The position numbers were made by a program, and so were the translations under genes. Shown one piece after another: positions 2,890 to 8,698 of a stretch of 8,727 nucleotides of DNA. Below the pieces are notes generated by a model. That model was not told the origin of the DNA and searched no databases. It was given only the letters and a program-made list of their open reading frames with translations. The stretch covers positions 1 to 8,727 of the forward strand of contig JAMCTM010000018.1 of the NCBI GenBank assembly GCA_023379465.1. Direction: 5' to 3'. The first letter of the stretch is position 1; each line of letters opens with the position of its first letter. Source of the stretch: Patescibacteria group bacterium (lineage in GTDB: Bacteria > Patescibacteria > Microgenomatia > Levybacterales > UBA12049).

Positions 2890-2905
2890 TTCATGAAATC
2901 TTCAT
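2890..2905 (+). promoter_or_regulatory. TTCAT-N6-TTCAT box 1, upstream of the response regulator gene
   Basis: TTCAT at 2890-2894 and again at 2901-2905, an exact 11-base period, followed by CTT. The second half ends 9 bases before the -10 element. The geometry matches operators of OmpR/PhoB-family dimers, whose half-sites repeat every helical turn and take the place of a -35 element. Its position before the regulator's own gene suggests autoregulation. Confidence 0.65.
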
Positions 2906-2911
2906 CTTGCC

Positions 2912-2920
2912 TGTTATAAT
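2912..2920 (+). promoter_or_regulatory. Extended -10 for the two-component operon, leaderless
   Basis: TGTTATAAT (2912-2920) lies 9 bases before ATG 2930. No convincing -35 hexamer exists at 17 bases; that position is occupied by the TTCAT box. This suggests activator dependence. The predicted start near 2927 leaves a 5' leader of about 3 bases. Confidence 0.6.
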
Positions 2921-2929
2921 GTGTTCTAT

Positions 2930-3604
2930 ATGCGGGTGCTAATTGTTGAAGACGAGGAAAAACTCAATCTTGGTATAAAAAGAGGGCTTGAACGGGAAGG
3001 ATATAGCGTTGACAGTGCGTTTGACGGTGAAAAAGGCCAACTCCTTGCGGAGGATTCGGCCTATGATGTAATCATTCTTGACATTTTACTTCCTAAACAA
3101 AACGGGCTTGCAATATGCAAATATTTACGTACTAACCGGATAAGTACTCCGATTTTGCTGCTTACCGCAAAGGACGCGCTGGAAGATAAGATAATTGGCC
3201 TTGACAGCGGTGCCGATGATTATCTAATTAAACCAATTAAGTTTGAAGAATTAACCGCCAGAATCCGCGCACTTCTCAGACGGCCTCAAACTCCACTTCC
3301 GTCCCAACTTGAGCTTAGAGGAATCGTGCTTAACACGATAACACGAAGCGTAAGCGTAGATGGCAAGATTCTAAAATTAACATTGAAAGAATTCCGACTC
3401 TTGGAGTACCTCATGAGAAATATGAACAGGGTTCTTACACGGGAACAAATCTTAGATCACGTCTGGGACATATCATTCAACTCATTTACCAATGTTGTTG
3501 ACGTACATATTAAAAATATTAGACAAAAGATAGGAAAAAAACATGTCCTGCTTCTGAAAACCGTTCGCGGCATTGGCTATACTCTTAAAGACGACTATGA
3601 ATAA
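2930..3604 (+). CDS. OmpR/PhoB-family response regulator
   Basis: A complete 224-residue regulator. The receiver domain (1-115) has the acidic pair E7/D8, phospho-acceptor D51 (YDVIILDILLP), T79 (LLLTAKD) and K101 (LIKPI). The winged-helix DNA-binding domain (about 128-222) has the usual LTLKEFRLLEYLMRN, LTREQILDHVWD, VVDVHIKNIRQKIG and KTVRGIGYTL segments. I choose ATG 2930 because MRVLIVEDEE is the standard family start; the in-frame GTG at 2921 would add only FY before it and lies in the promoter. The gene overlaps the kinase gene by 8 bases, so they are translated together. Regulators of this family bind direct repeats with 11-base spacing, matching the boxes at 2890, 4567 and 5832. Which stimulus it answers cannot be read from the sequence. 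Confidence 0.95.
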   Translation: MRVLIVEDEEKLNLGIKRGLEREGYSVDSAFDGEKGQLLAEDSAYDVIILDILLPKQNGLAICKYLRTNRISTPILLLTAKDALEDKIIGLDSGADDYLIKPIKFEELTARIRALLRRPQTPLPSQLELRGIVLNTITRSVSVDGKILKLTLKEFRLLEYLMRNMNRVLTREQILDHVWDISFNSFTNVVDVHIKNIRQKIGKKHVLLLKTVRGIGYTLKDDYE

Positions 3605-4565
3605 CCTTTTTTCCAAAACGCGGCTGCGATTAACTGCTTTGTATATCATAATCACTGTGATTCTCCTTTTTATTTTCAGCCAGATTATCTATATCAGCGT
3701 TTCCGGGAATATCAGAAATGACGTTGAAGGAGACTTTATAAGCAAAGAACAGCAGATCATATTTGTTCAAAAGCAAATCAATAATCTTAAAATTTCACTC
3801 GCTGTTTCAAACATTATTGTATTAATCATTGTAAGCGGGACAGGTTATTTCCTGGCAGGAAAAACCCTTGAACCTGTTAAGCGTACAATGGAGAACCAAA
3901 AACAGTTTTTAAGCGATGCCTCTCATGAACTTCGCACCCCTTTATCCATTTTACAGACAAACCTTGAAAACGACTTAAAAGAAAAACGGATAAATAATAA
4001 AGTTTCTAAAAATATCTTAAACAATCTTGAGGAAGTAGAAAGAATGACGGCCCTTGTTAATGATCTCCTGCTGCTTTCCAGGCTTGACGCGAATACTTCT
4101 TCTATTTCCCTGAAAAAAATAGACCTAAAGGAAATTTTACAAAATATAGGACAGCGCTTTTTACCTTACGCAAAATCAAAAAAAATATCTTTAACCTTTT
4201 CTCTGCGCTCATCAAAAATTTTTATCAACGGAAATCAGGAATTGTTGCTTATGGCATTGGGAAATGTACTCAAAAATGCGATAGACTATAACCGTAAAAA
4301 TGGAAAAGTTTTGTTATCTCTTGAAAAAAAACATAATAATATTATTGTCCTTATAAAGGACACGGGATCGGGTATTCCTTCAAAAAATCTGCCGTATGTC
4401 TTCGACCGTTTCTATAAAGCCGAAGAAAGCCGTTCAGGACATAAAGGCACAGGCTTAGGCCTTGCCATAACAAAGGATATTATTAAAAAACATAAGGGTT
4501 CGATAAAAATAAAAAGTATCCCCGGTAAACAAACAACCGTCACGATTGCGTTCCCTGTCGTTTAA
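3597..4565 (+). CDS. Membrane sensor histidine kinase, partner of the regulator
   Basis: 322 residues from ATG 3597, overlapping the end of the regulator gene. Membrane helix 1 is about 13-36 and helix 2 about 66-88, with an outer loop of only about 30 residues (NDVEGDFISKEQQIIFVQKQ), too small for a folded sensor domain. It probably senses a membrane or envelope state or a partner protein. No full HAMP domain is seen, only a short linker (AGKTLEPVKRTMENQ). The H-box SHELRTPLS holds phospho-acceptor H110. The catalytic domain has an N-box (NVLKNAIDYN, about 223-232), G1 (DTGSGI, 255-260), F-box (VFDRFYKAEE) and G2 (GTGLGL, 284-289). All motifs are intact, so it should be active. It ends with TAA, one base before box 2. 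Confidence 0.93.
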   Translation: MNNLFSKTRLRLTALYIIITVILLFIFSQIIYISVSGNIRNDVEGDFISKEQQIIFVQKQINNLKISLAVSNIIVLIIVSGTGYFLAGKTLEPVKRTMENQKQFLSDASHELRTPLSILQTNLENDLKEKRINNKVSKNILNNLEEVERMTALVNDLLLLSRLDANTSSISLKKIDLKEILQNIGQRFLPYAKSKKISLTFSLRSSKIFINGNQELLLMALGNVLKNAIDYNRKNGKVLLSLEKKHNNIIVLIKDTGSGIPSKNLPYVFDRFYKAEESRSGHKGTGLGLAITKDIIKKHKGSIKIKSIPGKQTTVTIAFPVV

Positions 4566-4566
4566 C

Positions 4567-4598
4567 TTCATATACTTTTCATATTTGAAATTTATCAT
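4567..4598 (+). promoter_or_regulatory. TTCAT-N6-TTCAT box 2 and -10, upstream of the glycosidase gene
   Basis: TTCAT at 4567-4571 and 4578-4582, again exactly 11 bases apart. Ten bases later comes TATCAT (4593-4598), a plausible -10. The predicted start near 4605 lies about 8 bases before ATG 4613. The box begins immediately after the kinase stop codon, so the glycosidase can be transcribed separately from the two-component operon and under the same regulator. Confidence 0.6.
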
Positions 4599-4612
4599 GA
4601 AGAAATTGCTCT

Positions 4613-5764
4613 ATGCGAAAATATCAGCTTATAAAAAGAGATCAAAAAAAGAGGGTAAAAACAACTTTTATTCTGGCAGGCATAGGACTGTTGTTTTTTG
4701 TTGCGTATATTTGCGCATCTTCACTGTCTTTTTTCGCAAATGCCGCGGATTATATCGCGCGTCCTCTTATTGGTTCCCGCAACACAGTCGTGTTGGAATC
4801 TCTTTTTTTCGGCCTGTCCGATACAACGAAACGGGCGGCTTCTCACTTTGTCTCTCCTTCACAGCATGTTTTTGCCAACGATAATAGAAAAACTATTAGC
4901 AAAACCTCAAGCCCTGCCCCTATTCCCCAATCCATGCGGCTCTCCCCCATACCATCGCTAACTTCGCTAGAACCGTTTCCCAATGAAGGAGTCTGGCGGC
5001 CTATTCTTTTTGACAGGTTTTCCAAACAAACGCTCTTGGCAAAAACTATCGTGAGTCCGGACCCGCAGAGAAACTATGCCTATGTAGCGCTGGTTAAAAT
5101 GGCTATGAAAAAGCTTGGTGTCGCCGCTGTCGCAGGAGGCGCGCAACCGGGGGGACCGATTGGAAACCCCGGAACAGGAATAATCCCATGGAAAATTACA
5201 TCTCGTAATAAGCTCATTGCCGCGTTTAACGGGGGCTTTCAGTATAAAGACGGACAATATGGTATGACCATTGGAAAAAAAACCTATGTGCCATTGCAAA
5301 ATAATCTCGCCACGTTTGTTATATATAATAACGGGAGTCTAAACATTATTAACTATCAAGGCCAAGACCTATCCAATACCACTGCGATAAGACAGAACGG
5401 CCCGATGCTTATTGAAAATGGAAGCATTACTTCCTATACGGATAATAGGGACACATGGGGGCTAACGGTTACCAACTCCATGTATACCTGGCGTTCGGGA
5501 ATCGGCATCACAAAAAACGGCAACCTTATTTATGCAGTTGGTCCCTCTCTCGTTCCGCATACACTTGCGAAAGCGTTGCTCGCGGCGGGAGCGATAAACG
5601 CGATGCAACTTGATATTAATCCATATTGGGTAAGATTTGTGCTGTACCATCTGCGCTCTCAGGGGACATATACCTATCAGCCGCTCTTACGGAAAATGAC
5701 AAACGGAGGATACGCGTATTTACATGGATATCAAAAAGATTTTTTCTATGTATATACAAAATAA
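4613..5764 (+). CDS. Membrane-anchored NAGPA-type phosphodiester glycosidase family protein
   Basis: 383 residues from ATG 4613; the upstream ATG 4597 is in another frame and within the -10. Basic residues 3-16 precede one membrane helix (about 17-45), followed by a Ser/Pro-rich linker (about 80-125). The outward domain (about 128-383) resembles the phosphodiester glycosidase family (NAGPA, DUF2233): VALVKMAMKKLGV, AAFNGGFQ (NGGF 206-209), RQNGPMLIENG, TWRSGIGITKNGNLIYAV (about 292-309), LLAAGAINAMQLDINPYW (about 322-339) and a closing LHGYQKDFFYVY. Relatives remove or cleave sugar phosphodiesters, so a cell-surface glycan role is plausible. Where I would expect an LDGG-type motif the sequence has LDIN (333-336), so activity or substrate may differ. 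It follows box 2, tying it to the adjacent regulator. Confidence 0.82.
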   Translation: MRKYQLIKRDQKKRVKTTFILAGIGLLFFVAYICASSLSFFANAADYIARPLIGSRNTVVLESLFFGLSDTTKRAASHFVSPSQHVFANDNRKTISKTSSPAPIPQSMRLSPIPSLTSLEPFPNEGVWRPILFDRFSKQTLLAKTIVSPDPQRNYAYVALVKMAMKKLGVAAVAGGAQPGGPIGNPGTGIIPWKITSRNKLIAAFNGGFQYKDGQYGMTIGKKTYVPLQNNLATFVIYNNGSLNIINYQGQDLSNTTAIRQNGPMLIENGSITSYTDNRDTWGLTVTNSMYTWRSGIGITKNGNLIYAVGPSLVPHTLAKALLAAGAINAMQLDINPYWVRFVLYHLRSQGTYTYQPLLRKMTNGGYAYLHGYQKDFFYVYTK

Positions 5765-5831
5765 TCATTTTTCTTTCTTCGCCTCTTTTCTAAGGTAAAA
5801 ATCCTTTAAAATTCCAATTCCTATTCTATAC

Positions 5832-5866
5832 TTCATAAAGTCTTCATCTTTCTGCATTATTATAAT
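5832..5866 (+). promoter_or_regulatory. TTCAT-N6-TTCAT box 3 and -10, upstream of the secreted protein gene
   Basis: TTCAT at 5832-5836 and 5843-5847, 11 bases apart. The sequence CTTCATAAAGTCTTCATCTT closely matches box 1 (TTCATGAAATCTTCATCTT). TATTAT (5858-5863) lies 10 bases after it and overlaps TATAAT (5861-5866). A start near 5870 gives a leader of about 54 bases, unlike the nearly leaderless neighbours. The pattern recalls the E. coli Pho box, with TCAT repeated every 11 bases. Confidence 0.65.
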
Positions 5867-5923: not shown

Positions 5924-6220
5924 ATGAAAAAGCTGATTACAATTCCGGTAATTGCCCTATTAACGCTAGCCGGTGTCTTCACGCTCGGCCAGCAAAGCAG
6001 GTCTGCCCGCGCGGCAGGAACAACTCCTGCCCAGCAGGGAATATCTCAAACCCAAAAACAGGTAAATACAGACATCGGCAAGCCCGATGTAAATGAAACC
6101 GGGCTTGAGATAAAAGGCAAGGAGGCATCCTGGCAAAAGGGGACTGAGGCAGATGCGCCAGGCGGACATCAAGATGCGCAGGGAACAAATGTTGACCATC
6201 AGTTCAACGGCGCAGAGTAA
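5924..6220 (+). CDS. Small secreted acidic protein under the two-component regulator
   Basis: 98 residues. Residues 1-32 form a clear Sec signal peptide: MKK, a hydrophobic core (LITIPVIALLTLAGVFTL), then SARA or ARAA as likely cleavage sites. The mature part, about 65 residues, is hydrophilic, Gln/Gly/Asp-rich and without Cys, ending GGHQDAQGTNVDHQFNGAE. No membrane helix or sorting signal is seen, so it should be released or loosely held at the surface. I do not recognise the family with confidence. Box 3, a 5' hairpin and a strong Shine-Dalgarno suggest it is made in quantity when the regulator is active. Possible roles are an extracellular signal, a metal or phosphate binder, or a stress protein; none is supported directly. 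Its stop codon lies inside the first downstream hairpin. Confidence 0.8.
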   Translation: MKKLITIPVIALLTLAGVFTLGQQSRSARAAGTTPAQQGISQTQKQVNTDIGKPDVNETGLEIKGKEASWQKGTEADAPGGHQDAQGTNVDHQFNGAE

Positions 6221-6328: not shown

Positions 6329-7240
6329 CTAGGTGCTTTTGAAGGCGAATCCAAAAAGAGAGTAATACCATGGAAGTTTAGCGCTGACAACCTGTCCTGT
6401 TTGGGCATTGATTTTCTCCTGAACAGCCGCCTTAACCGGAATAATGCCTAAGAATTTACGGATTTGTATCCCTTGGGCTTGGTATACCGGGGTACCTTGC
6501 TGTTCGGTAAGGTTTACTGATGATACCGAAGATAGTCTGTTCTGCGCGGGAAGGGATTGAAATACCTGGGTCGGAAAGGTTTTGATCACAGTTACTCCGC
6601 TTGGTGTTTTTATGGCCATTGTCTGATCTGTTGGGTTAATAACCACCGGGTATTGAGTTGTGATGGCATACGGGCCATTGTTAATAGTTATTTCATTTGG
6701 TCCTTGGATATGAACGCTGACTGTTCCTGCCTGGGCGGTAGTAATCTGGGTAACAGGGGTGGCGCTTGAGGGAGGAGTTTGAAATTCCTGCGTTATTTTG
6801 CCTTGCTGGTTAAGAATAACCTTACCTGAATTTGAACCTTCCTGCGGGGGCTGAACTTCAACGCTTTGCAAATTATTGTTTTCGGTTTGTTTATTAAGCT
6901 CCTGCTGAACTTTTTCTACCTGTTGATGTACCTCCGGAATATCTGTGGGCTCCGGTGTATCGGTTGGTTCAATCTTGTCCGGTTTTTCCTGATCCGAAGA
7001 ATGGCTATCATTTGACACGCTGTTTTCGCTTCCTGCTGAATCCCCTCTGTCGGCAAGATAGGTACTTGTCCCAAGAACATAGGCAGAATGAGACGTTTTA
7101 TAAAGAACAATGCCTAATACCGCGATAACCAGGGTAGATAAGGCAACAATAATATAGCGGTAAGAGAGAAGATGCGAGAATTCCCCTTTTTTGTTTGATT
7201 TAGACAAATGACTAATAGTTTGGACAGGCTTTCTTTTCAC
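6329..7240 (-). CDS. Single-pass surface protein with disordered stalk and C-terminal domain
   Basis: 303 residues, starting with GTG at 7240 (no suitable ATG nearby). A basic cytoplasmic segment (1-28) is followed by one membrane helix (about 29-46), a Ser/Asp/Glu/Pro/Thr-rich linker (about 60-105, with PTDTPEPTD), a Gln/Glu-rich helix (about 106-130), and a beta-rich region (about 135-240) with repeated short strands such as TVSVHIQGPNEITINNG. A compact C-terminal unit (about 250-303) contains TPVYQAQGIQIRKFLGIIP, an INAQTGQVV turn and PWYYSLFGF. The C-terminal unit reads like a PepSY-type or small-inhibitor fold, but I cannot assign it. It is convergent with the secreted protein gene and has its own promoter without a TTCAT box. 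The protein should sit outside the cell on a flexible stalk. Confidence 0.78.
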   Translation of the reverse strand: MKRKPVQTISHLSKSNKKGEFSHLLSYRYIIVALSTLVIAVLGIVLYKTSHSAYVLGTSTYLADRGDSAGSENSVSNDSHSSDQEKPDKIEPTDTPEPTDIPEVHQQVEKVQQELNKQTENNNLQSVEVQPPQEGSNSGKVILNQQGKITQEFQTPPSSATPVTQITTAQAGTVSVHIQGPNEITINNGPYAITTQYPVVINPTDQTMAIKTPSGVTVIKTFPTQVFQSLPAQNRLSSVSSVNLTEQQGTPVYQAQGIQIRKFLGIIPVKAAVQEKINAQTGQVVSAKLPWYYSLFGFAFKST

Positions 7241-8492: not shown

Positions 8493-8609
8493 TCACCACC
8501 TACCACCTTTTCGAGTGATAACCTTCTGGAATTCTTTAACGAGGAGCTTAACTCCCGCAAGGACTTTTTCTGCCATGCCAATTTCTCGGTTTAGGCAACT
8601 CAGTGCCAT
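8493..8609 (-). CDS. Possible 38-residue basic protein starting in the inverted repeat copy
   Basis: ATG 8609 to TGA 8495-8493 encodes MALSCLNREIGMAEKVLAG, then a Lys/Val/Leu-rich amphipathic helix (VKLLVKEFQKVITRKGG) ending RW. The ATG-GCA-CTG start lies in the 19-base sequence shared with the start of the 241-residue protein at the left end. AAGGG lies about 10 bases upstream as a weak Shine-Dalgarno. The same frame upstream (8726-8620) is open and protein-like (NIYLFKKLERLSIVAKG) up to a TAG 3 codons before the ATG, so this may be the second half of a broken longer gene. No family recognised. Confidence 0.4.
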   Translation of the reverse strand: MALSCLNREIGMAEKVLAGVKLLVKEFQKVITRKGGRW

Positions 8610-8619
8610 TGCATTCTAA
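8601..8619 (-). repeat. Inverted repeat copy 3 of the left-end element
   Basis: On the minus strand TTAGAATGCAATGGCACTG is identical to 109-127 on the plus strand. The similarity breaks off on both sides apart from a loose TAA-containing match upstream. In the frame of copies 1 and 2 it reads LECNGT, again preceded by TAA (GGC TAA GGG TTA). The match is exact over 19 bases and lies 8.5 kb from copy 1 in opposite orientation. Confidence 0.75.
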
Positions 8620-8698
8620 CCCTTAGCCACAATTGACAAACGCTCCAGCTTCTTGAAAAGATAGATGTTACAAACAAACTCACAAGAAGAAAGAGCGT

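Follow-up and report, generated by a model that had tools for sequence, protein, structure and literature searches.

Predicted operators of an OmpR/PhoB-family response regulator: a direct-repeat box that recurs before related regulator genes

An 8,727-nucleotide stretch of DNA from a Patescibacteria group bacterium (contig JAMCTM010000018.1; hereafter the window) encodes an OmpR/PhoB-family response regulator (2930-3604, + strand) and contains three copies of the direct repeat TTCAT-N6-TTCAT, termed the box below. These stand before the regulator-kinase operon, a NAGPA-type phosphodiester glycosidase gene, and a gene for a small secreted-looking protein, respectively. Our analysis makes it very probable that the boxes are operators of this regulator, with class II activation the likely mode of action at all three promoters. 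The sharing of one box by the system's own genes and by related regulators points to a widespread self-controlled switch, and we read the box as the conserved, predicted operator of a subfamily within the OmpR/PhoB family, ordinary in its mechanism. Four results were obtained by computation, as detailed below: the motif itself, the conservation of its position, the way in which its presence depends on the recognition helix of the regulator, and the recurrence of certain downstream genes.

Exactly three exact matches to the box lie in the window, all on the + strand: box 1, TTCATGAAATCTTCAT (2890-2905), is proposed to serve the regulator-kinase operon as its autoregulatory operator; box 2, TTCATATACTTTTCAT (4567-4582), begins immediately past the kinase stop codon; and box 3, TTCATAAAGTCTTCAT (5832-5847), is found 76 bp before the small-protein gene. 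An earlier reading made from the letters alone (the sequence-only reading) had placed the repeat at these coordinates and nowhere else in the window, and the pattern scan agrees on both counts. By eye, the -10 hexamer TATAAT (2915-2920) lies 9 bp past box 1 and 9 bp ahead of the regulator ATG, while the -10-like sequences TATCAT (4593-4598) and TATTAT (5858-5863; alternatively TATAAT, 5861-5866) each lie 10 bp past boxes 2 and 3, respectively, all on the same strand. The earlier claim of a -10 element 9-10 bases past each box thus holds, as does, from Pfam and NCBIfam scans, the identity of the genes that the boxes were said to precede.

For the exact box, the chance expectation in the window is 0.03, and three sites were reached in 0 of 200 dinucleotide shuffles. 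When up to two mismatches are allowed, matches do not rise above background (20 observed vs 18.5 expected); therefore, the signal in the window is that of the exact matches. Both this result and the lack of enrichment of a strict form of the pattern over 100 relatives (see below) are what would be expected were the boxes chance repeats in AT-rich DNA. Given the shuffles and the positional conservation over 156 regulators described below, we nonetheless reject a chance origin, which is scarcely credible.

The regulator was assigned from Pfam, NCBIfam, alignment, and structure matches. Its domains PF00072 (Response_reg, 93.6 bits) and PF00486 (Trans_reg_C, 91.7 bits) both score above the Pfam cut-off, and the predicted protein thus has the receiver-plus-winged-helix composition of OmpR/PhoB response regulators. 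Receiver residues E7, D8, D51, T79, and K101 are invariant across the 14 regulators of our alignment A4; we take their roles, including those of the phospho-acceptor Asp and the Lys, to be the usual ones.

The sequence-only reading had named boxes scattered at random through the genome, or not conserved upstream of orthologues, as grounds for abandoning it, and these computational tests were run on the genomes of relatives. A profile scan of genome contigs with a kinase alignment yielded 39 loci, of which 24 (L001-L023 and L030) are termed nearer, the kinase match there covering most of its length (L018 and L023 being cut short). An exact box was found 10-60 bp before the regulator start in 18 of the 24 nearer loci and in 0 of the 12 readable among the 15 farther ones; upstream of related regulators, the box is kept at a nearly fixed distance. 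L001 and L002 are closely alike, as are L019 and L021, meaning that the 18 box-bearing loci are not all independent. The box is oriented toward the regulator in 11 of the 18. A search of 10 of these genomes for the Trans_reg_C family gave 24 matches, 22 with helices readable by tblastn; exact boxes are present at 19-26 bp in 14 of these 22 OmpR-type regulators, with window-type helices (some of the 14 being the starting loci again), and a one-mismatch box precedes two further regulators, in L118 and L136. Two peculiarities of individual loci may be recorded here. At 5623-5638 of L001, inside the regulator gene, a 25-base stretch matches by eye, without a difference, the reverse complement of the box region in the promoter of this locus; it is missing from the near-identical L002 and resembles the product of a template switch or of faulty assembly. 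There is also, a few kb upstream in L010 (411-2124), a second regulator-kinase pair with two boxes of its own, before YdjC and PMT_2 genes.

A larger regulator sample was obtained by searching with alignment A4 at E 1e-50, whereby 47 of 281 relatives of genome G006 and 106 of 296 relatives of genome G008 matched. We read loci L138-L196 together with 20 of the 28 G006 and 40 of the 108 G008 matches that carry no locus number, mostly the higher-scoring ones. Together with the earlier loci, the 183 entries analysed contained 177 with a regulator match and, after removal of fragments under 150 amino acids (aa) and duplicates, 156 unique regulators, 51 of which have an exact box within 10-60 bp of the start. 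Box presence tracks the recognition helix of the regulator: for helices of the window type ([FM][STA]N.[VTI][DN][VA][HYN][IVLM][KR][NQ][LIV]R), the box is exact in 45/70 regulators and present at up to one mismatch in 58/70; for other helices, these figures are 6/86 and 10/86. Mononucleotide-shuffled upstream regions contained an exact box in 0.03% of cases and one at up to one mismatch in 1.5%. Among the last 60 regulators fetched, window-type helices go with an exact box in 6/14 and with at most one mismatch in 9/14, and other helices in 3/46 and 4/46, respectively.

The form of the motif was examined in the 76 bp upstream of the 156 regulators. Scanned on both strands, the N6 spacer occurs in 52/156 regulators and spacers of 2-5 and 7-14 in 0-3 each, i.e., a direct repeat of ~11-bp period as expected for OmpR/PhoB proteins. 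Permuted orders of the TTCAT letters occur in at most six regulators each. Of 1024 5-mer pairs at N6 on the + strand, TTCAT ranks first (41), followed by CTTCA (19), ATGAA (11), TGAAT, TCTTC, and GAATA (6 each), and TCATG (5), with all six runners-up overlapping the box or its reverse complement. Position is also restricted, as 36 of the 41 exact boxes on the + strand sit 21-26 bp from the regulator start.

These data bear on the alternative that the boxes belong to another DNA-binding protein, with the regulator gene merely one of its targets. Such a protein would account for boxes before genes that do not adjoin the starting two-component locus, as well as for those regulators that have the right helix and no box. 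However, the box follows the regulator's own recognition helix, even inside the same genomes, and a protein of this fold is expected to bind a direct repeat of 11 bp; we thus give this alternative very little credence.

Several observations weigh against the boxes being operators of the regulator and its relatives: (i) the helix pattern was shaped on the earlier loci and was written once all loci were fetched; (ii) 12 of the 70 right-helix regulators have no box at up to one mismatch; (iii) six of the 24 nearer loci (L005, L006, L007, L012, L020, and L030) have no box before the regulator, with that of L005, L007, and L030 located instead before small-protein and ABC-transporter genes; (iv) in 7 of the 18 box-bearing nearer loci (L013, L015-L019, and L021), the box faces a divergent ApbE gene and not the regulator, and its orientation is therefore not constant; (v) in L001 and L002, the two closest loci, where NAGPA follows the kinase, the counterpart of box 2 is a degenerate site (TTCAC-N6-GTCAT, two mismatches, by eye); and (vi) the strict box-plus-TATAAT pattern is not enriched among 100 relatives of genome G001, with 8 matches in 7 genomes vs 6 for controls and no match in the other 93. 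The bare pattern also has a large chance background, with 61 matches in the 10 genomes vs 28 for reversed-pattern controls, and we thus rejected the reading of its genome-wide occurrences as a regulon. Of 37 matches read away from the starting loci, 15 are intergenic; five of these lie 23-25 bp before an open reading frame (ORF), three of which are further regulator genes.

The 39 regulator promoters in which the box is 20-27 bp from the start have the consensus C-TTCAT-GAAA(T/A)(T/C)-TTCA(T/C)-N10-TATAAT. When the best -10 element is taken as that with at least 4/6 matches at offsets of 5-14 past the box (ties being assigned to 9), it falls 9, 10, or 11 bp past the box in 34/39. A -10 element with at least 5/6 matches at an offset of 7-11 is present in 30/39 regulator promoters, against a mean of 5.5 and a maximum of 13 after shuffling. 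For the other box-downstream ORFs, which include chance boxes, the count is 42/86 (shuffled mean 10.6, maximum 22). The usual 17-bp spacer would put the -35 element inside the second half-site; therefore, the box would replace it. In the class II layout of PhoB, the box is situated in the -35 region, ~10 bp ahead of the -10 element, and the placement found here would be of that kind. The short distance from the -10 element to the ATG further suggests near-leaderless regulator mRNAs.

A box covering the place of the -35 element could also belong to a regulator that mainly represses, blocking this region at the basal level until phosphorylation releases it or changes its sign; the divergent loci, in which a single box between two genes faces away from the regulator, would fit such an arrangement. 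However, the fixed 9-11 bp to the -10 element suits class II activators, while repressors tolerate varied positions, and OmpR/PhoB proteins on direct repeats at the -35 place are mostly activators. Repression as the main role is thus unlikely, though the strongest of the alternatives to activation considered here.

In the activation model that we favour, the membrane kinase would phosphorylate the regulator, which would then dimerise and bind in head-to-tail fashion to the two TTCAT half-sites, these being 11 bp apart and on one helix face. As the box ends ~10 bp before the -10 element, it would occupy the -35 region, and class II activation would be the likely consequence. The regulator-kinase operon would thereby be positively autoregulated, and the genes for the NAGPA glycosidase and the small secreted protein would be induced, in an envelope-directed response of an uncultured bacterium to what may be an envelope-stress or metal signal. 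Binding, phosphorylation dependence, activation over repression, and the nature of the signal are the steps that we infer. The sequence-only reading had proposed a local autoregulated switch; the conservation of the box before related regulators, and before some relatives of the small-protein and NAGPA genes, is in keeping with the switch, the regulon of which is however neither only local nor confined to this organism.

The kinase that completes the pair (3597-4565, +) has HisKA and HATPase_c domains (Pfam) and, by eye, ~30 residues between two apparent membrane segments. It is followed on the same strand by the homologue of NAGPA-type phosphodiester glycosidases (4613-5764; PF09992, from Pfam and homologues), which is probably exported, and by the 98-aa secreted-looking protein (5924-6220). 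The latter has a signal-peptide-like sequence, ends in GGHQDAQGTNVDHQFNGAE, and matched no Pfam or NCBIfam family; a family search places it in an undescribed family. The closest named relatives are from Patescibacteria (P0005 and P0123). Elsewhere in the window, a 303-aa protein that is probably membrane-anchored is encoded on the - strand (6329-7240), also without a Pfam or NCBIfam match, and similar short sequences around AATTCTTTAGAATG or AGAATGCAATGGCACTG were seen by eye near the window ends (~99-128, 861-890, and, as the reverse complement, ~8601-8620), two being direct and one inverted.

To define the genes that boxes precede, a census of TTCAT-N6-TTCAY was taken across the window and loci L001-L023, L027, L030, and L070-L256, yielding 178 distinct boxes, 143 of them with a downstream ORF. 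The list mixes true and chance sites, and its loci had been selected by their two-component genes or by the very pattern counted. Downstream ORFs clustered into regulators (52), DUF5666 (12), ApbE (10), rubredoxin (8), the small secreted family (7), ABC ATPases (5), NAGPA (4), PMT_2 glycosyltransferases (3), DUF347 (2), and PAP2 (2), plus singles; cluster names rest on a Pfam scan of one or two members each, that for the ABC ATPases being of an L009 protein outside the five. Scanned singles comprise FMN_bind (L004), an S41 protease (L079), a metallophosphatase (L088), VTT/DedA (L196), and YdjC (L010). Judged from these assignments, the recurrent genes would mostly have envelope or redox functions. 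Of the 12 related secreted proteins with a box 12-118 bp upstream (L101, L184, L186-L189, L191-L193, and L217-L219), one member, from L184, was scanned, and the DUF5666 name for the group derives from it.

Counterparts of boxes 2 and 3 are also found in relatives, box 2 being the less conserved. Boxes just past the kinase gene recur, and the kinase reading frames of L003, L004, L010, and L022 terminate within the box, which contains their last codons. NAGPA is preceded by an exact box in L147, L177, and L178 and by a TTCAC variant in L279, while the small-protein gene of L001 and L003 has an exact box 64-65 bp upstream. A separate arrangement is seen in L013, L015-L019, L021, and L022 (Nomurabacteria, Kaiserbacteria, and other metagenome-assembled genomes [MAGs]), where the box separates the regulator gene from an ApbE-type gene that diverges from it. 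There, ApbE is followed by genes for a membrane protein and an FAD/NAD oxidoreductase, and the kinase by genes for rubredoxin and a small secreted protein (names from Pfam for L015 and by likeness for the remaining loci). These loci may possibly form an envelope electron-transfer regulon.

The undescribed secreted family is the more surprising part of our finding. A protein search with it returned 283 proteins at E ≤0.01. Among the 120 matches listed, the protein terminates precisely with [DN]HQ..G.E in 111 and contains the GHQD part in 104, and none has a Cys beyond residue 30 or a Pfam domain. In whole genomes the family occurs as one match per genome. Matches came from 11 of the 20 genomes chosen, from 14 of 149 genomes related to G677 (a MAG of the Actinomycetes), and from 8 of 236 related to G002; these sets overlap in seven genomes, and the weakest matches are doubtful. 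Of the 26 corresponding loci (L257-L282), 17 carry the tail motif as applied here. A regulator or kinase match lies within ~1.5 kb of the small-protein gene in 13 of them (L257 and L258 being near-identical), and, among the other four, L279 and L280 adjoin NAGPA. The small-protein gene is preceded by an exact box in L257-L261 and L264 and by a one-mismatch form in L262 and L272; that of L263 is the same gene as in L007, which has an exact box. No box at up to one mismatch precedes it in L268, L269, L271, L273, L274, L278, L279, or L280. Adjacency to the two-component genes thus extends beyond the reach of the box. Small secreted proteins with swapped tail parts (DH.FEGDE before GNHQD) are encoded near two-component genes of the same kind in L010 (4894-5178) and L014 (10393-10671).

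Taken jointly, these features permit a tentative reading, to which we assign a minority chance of being correct. The box would mark a three-part module common to Patescibacteria and Actinomycetes, consisting of the regulator, a small-loop kinase, and a secreted protein of small size, the near-invariant tail of which (approximately its last 20 residues) is GGHQDxxGxNVDHQFxGxE-COOH. The tail might be a ligand or metal-binding tag that makes contact with the kinase, so completing a loop of feedback or communication. If so, box 3 would control the system's own accessory or signal protein and not an arbitrary export. The box also draws attention to a secreted family, so far undescribed, whose members adjoin this type of sensor in lineages far apart. 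Most Patescibacteria are uncultured and their transcription control is poorly known; no title among our literature results dealt with it. An operator assignable via the recognition helix would allow regulons in this group to be drawn from sequence alone.

Among open-licence papers (PMC supplements aside), none with any of six spellings of the box was found, and, as far as our searches show, the box is new as an assigned site in Patescibacteria. In NCBIfam, the best match of the window regulator is RppA (222.1 bits over its full length, curated cut-off 250) and that of the kinase is RppB (221.5 bits over the catalytic part, cut-off 400); with both under their cut-offs, RppA membership is not claimed. 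In Escherichia coli, PhoB uses two 11-bp direct repeats, each with a conserved 7-bp CTGTCAT (PMC2648988; PMC3978041). The OmpR/PhoB fold is held in common, and CTGTCAT is close to the (C)TTCAT of the window. However, the window half-sites are without the G of GTCAT, all three boxes having TTCAT, and the neighbouring genes are not phosphate genes; with the regulator at 186.4 bits vs a PhoB cut-off of 296.2, PhoB membership is not claimed either. The repeat of CiaR, from the CiaR/CiaH system of streptococci, is NTTAAG-N5-TTTAAG (PMC3091779). It resembles our box in having an 11-bp period and a conserved -10 region, and some kinase homologues are named CiaH; the half-site is TTAAG vs TTCAT here, the phylum is different, and, given TTCAT boxes and not TTAAG-type repeats with N5, we do not claim CiaR membership.

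The HssR repeat of S. aureus is reported to read GTTCATATT-N2-GTTCATATT, of which the inner TTCAT-N6-TTCAT would agree with the window box and the flanks would not. For HssR/HssS, the haem-stress system of Firmicutes, the predicted or required site is described as a direct repeat of the hrtAB promoter (PMC6305404; PMC3968170). No ABC transporter was among the eight scanned window proteins, and HssR membership is not claimed, there being no adjacent ABC efflux gene; ABC-2 transporters occur in some relatives. The best full-length matches of the regulator among solved structures include DrrD (1kgs, 184 bits) and BasR (8jo2 and 4s04, 155 bits). PmrA repeats have CTTAAG-like letters, and the window regulator is far below the PmrA cut-off (200 vs 330 bits). 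Tandem imperfect repeats are recognised by PmrA (PMC3973317).

For the 98-aa protein, in which no CpxP/Spy domain was found with Pfam or NCBIfam, CpxP nevertheless offers an analogue. The cpxP gene is itself a target of CpxR. CpxP is a small envelope protein that acts on CpxA, the kinase of its two-component system (PMC4160245); in our system, a comparable interaction between the small secreted protein and the kinase is proposed only.

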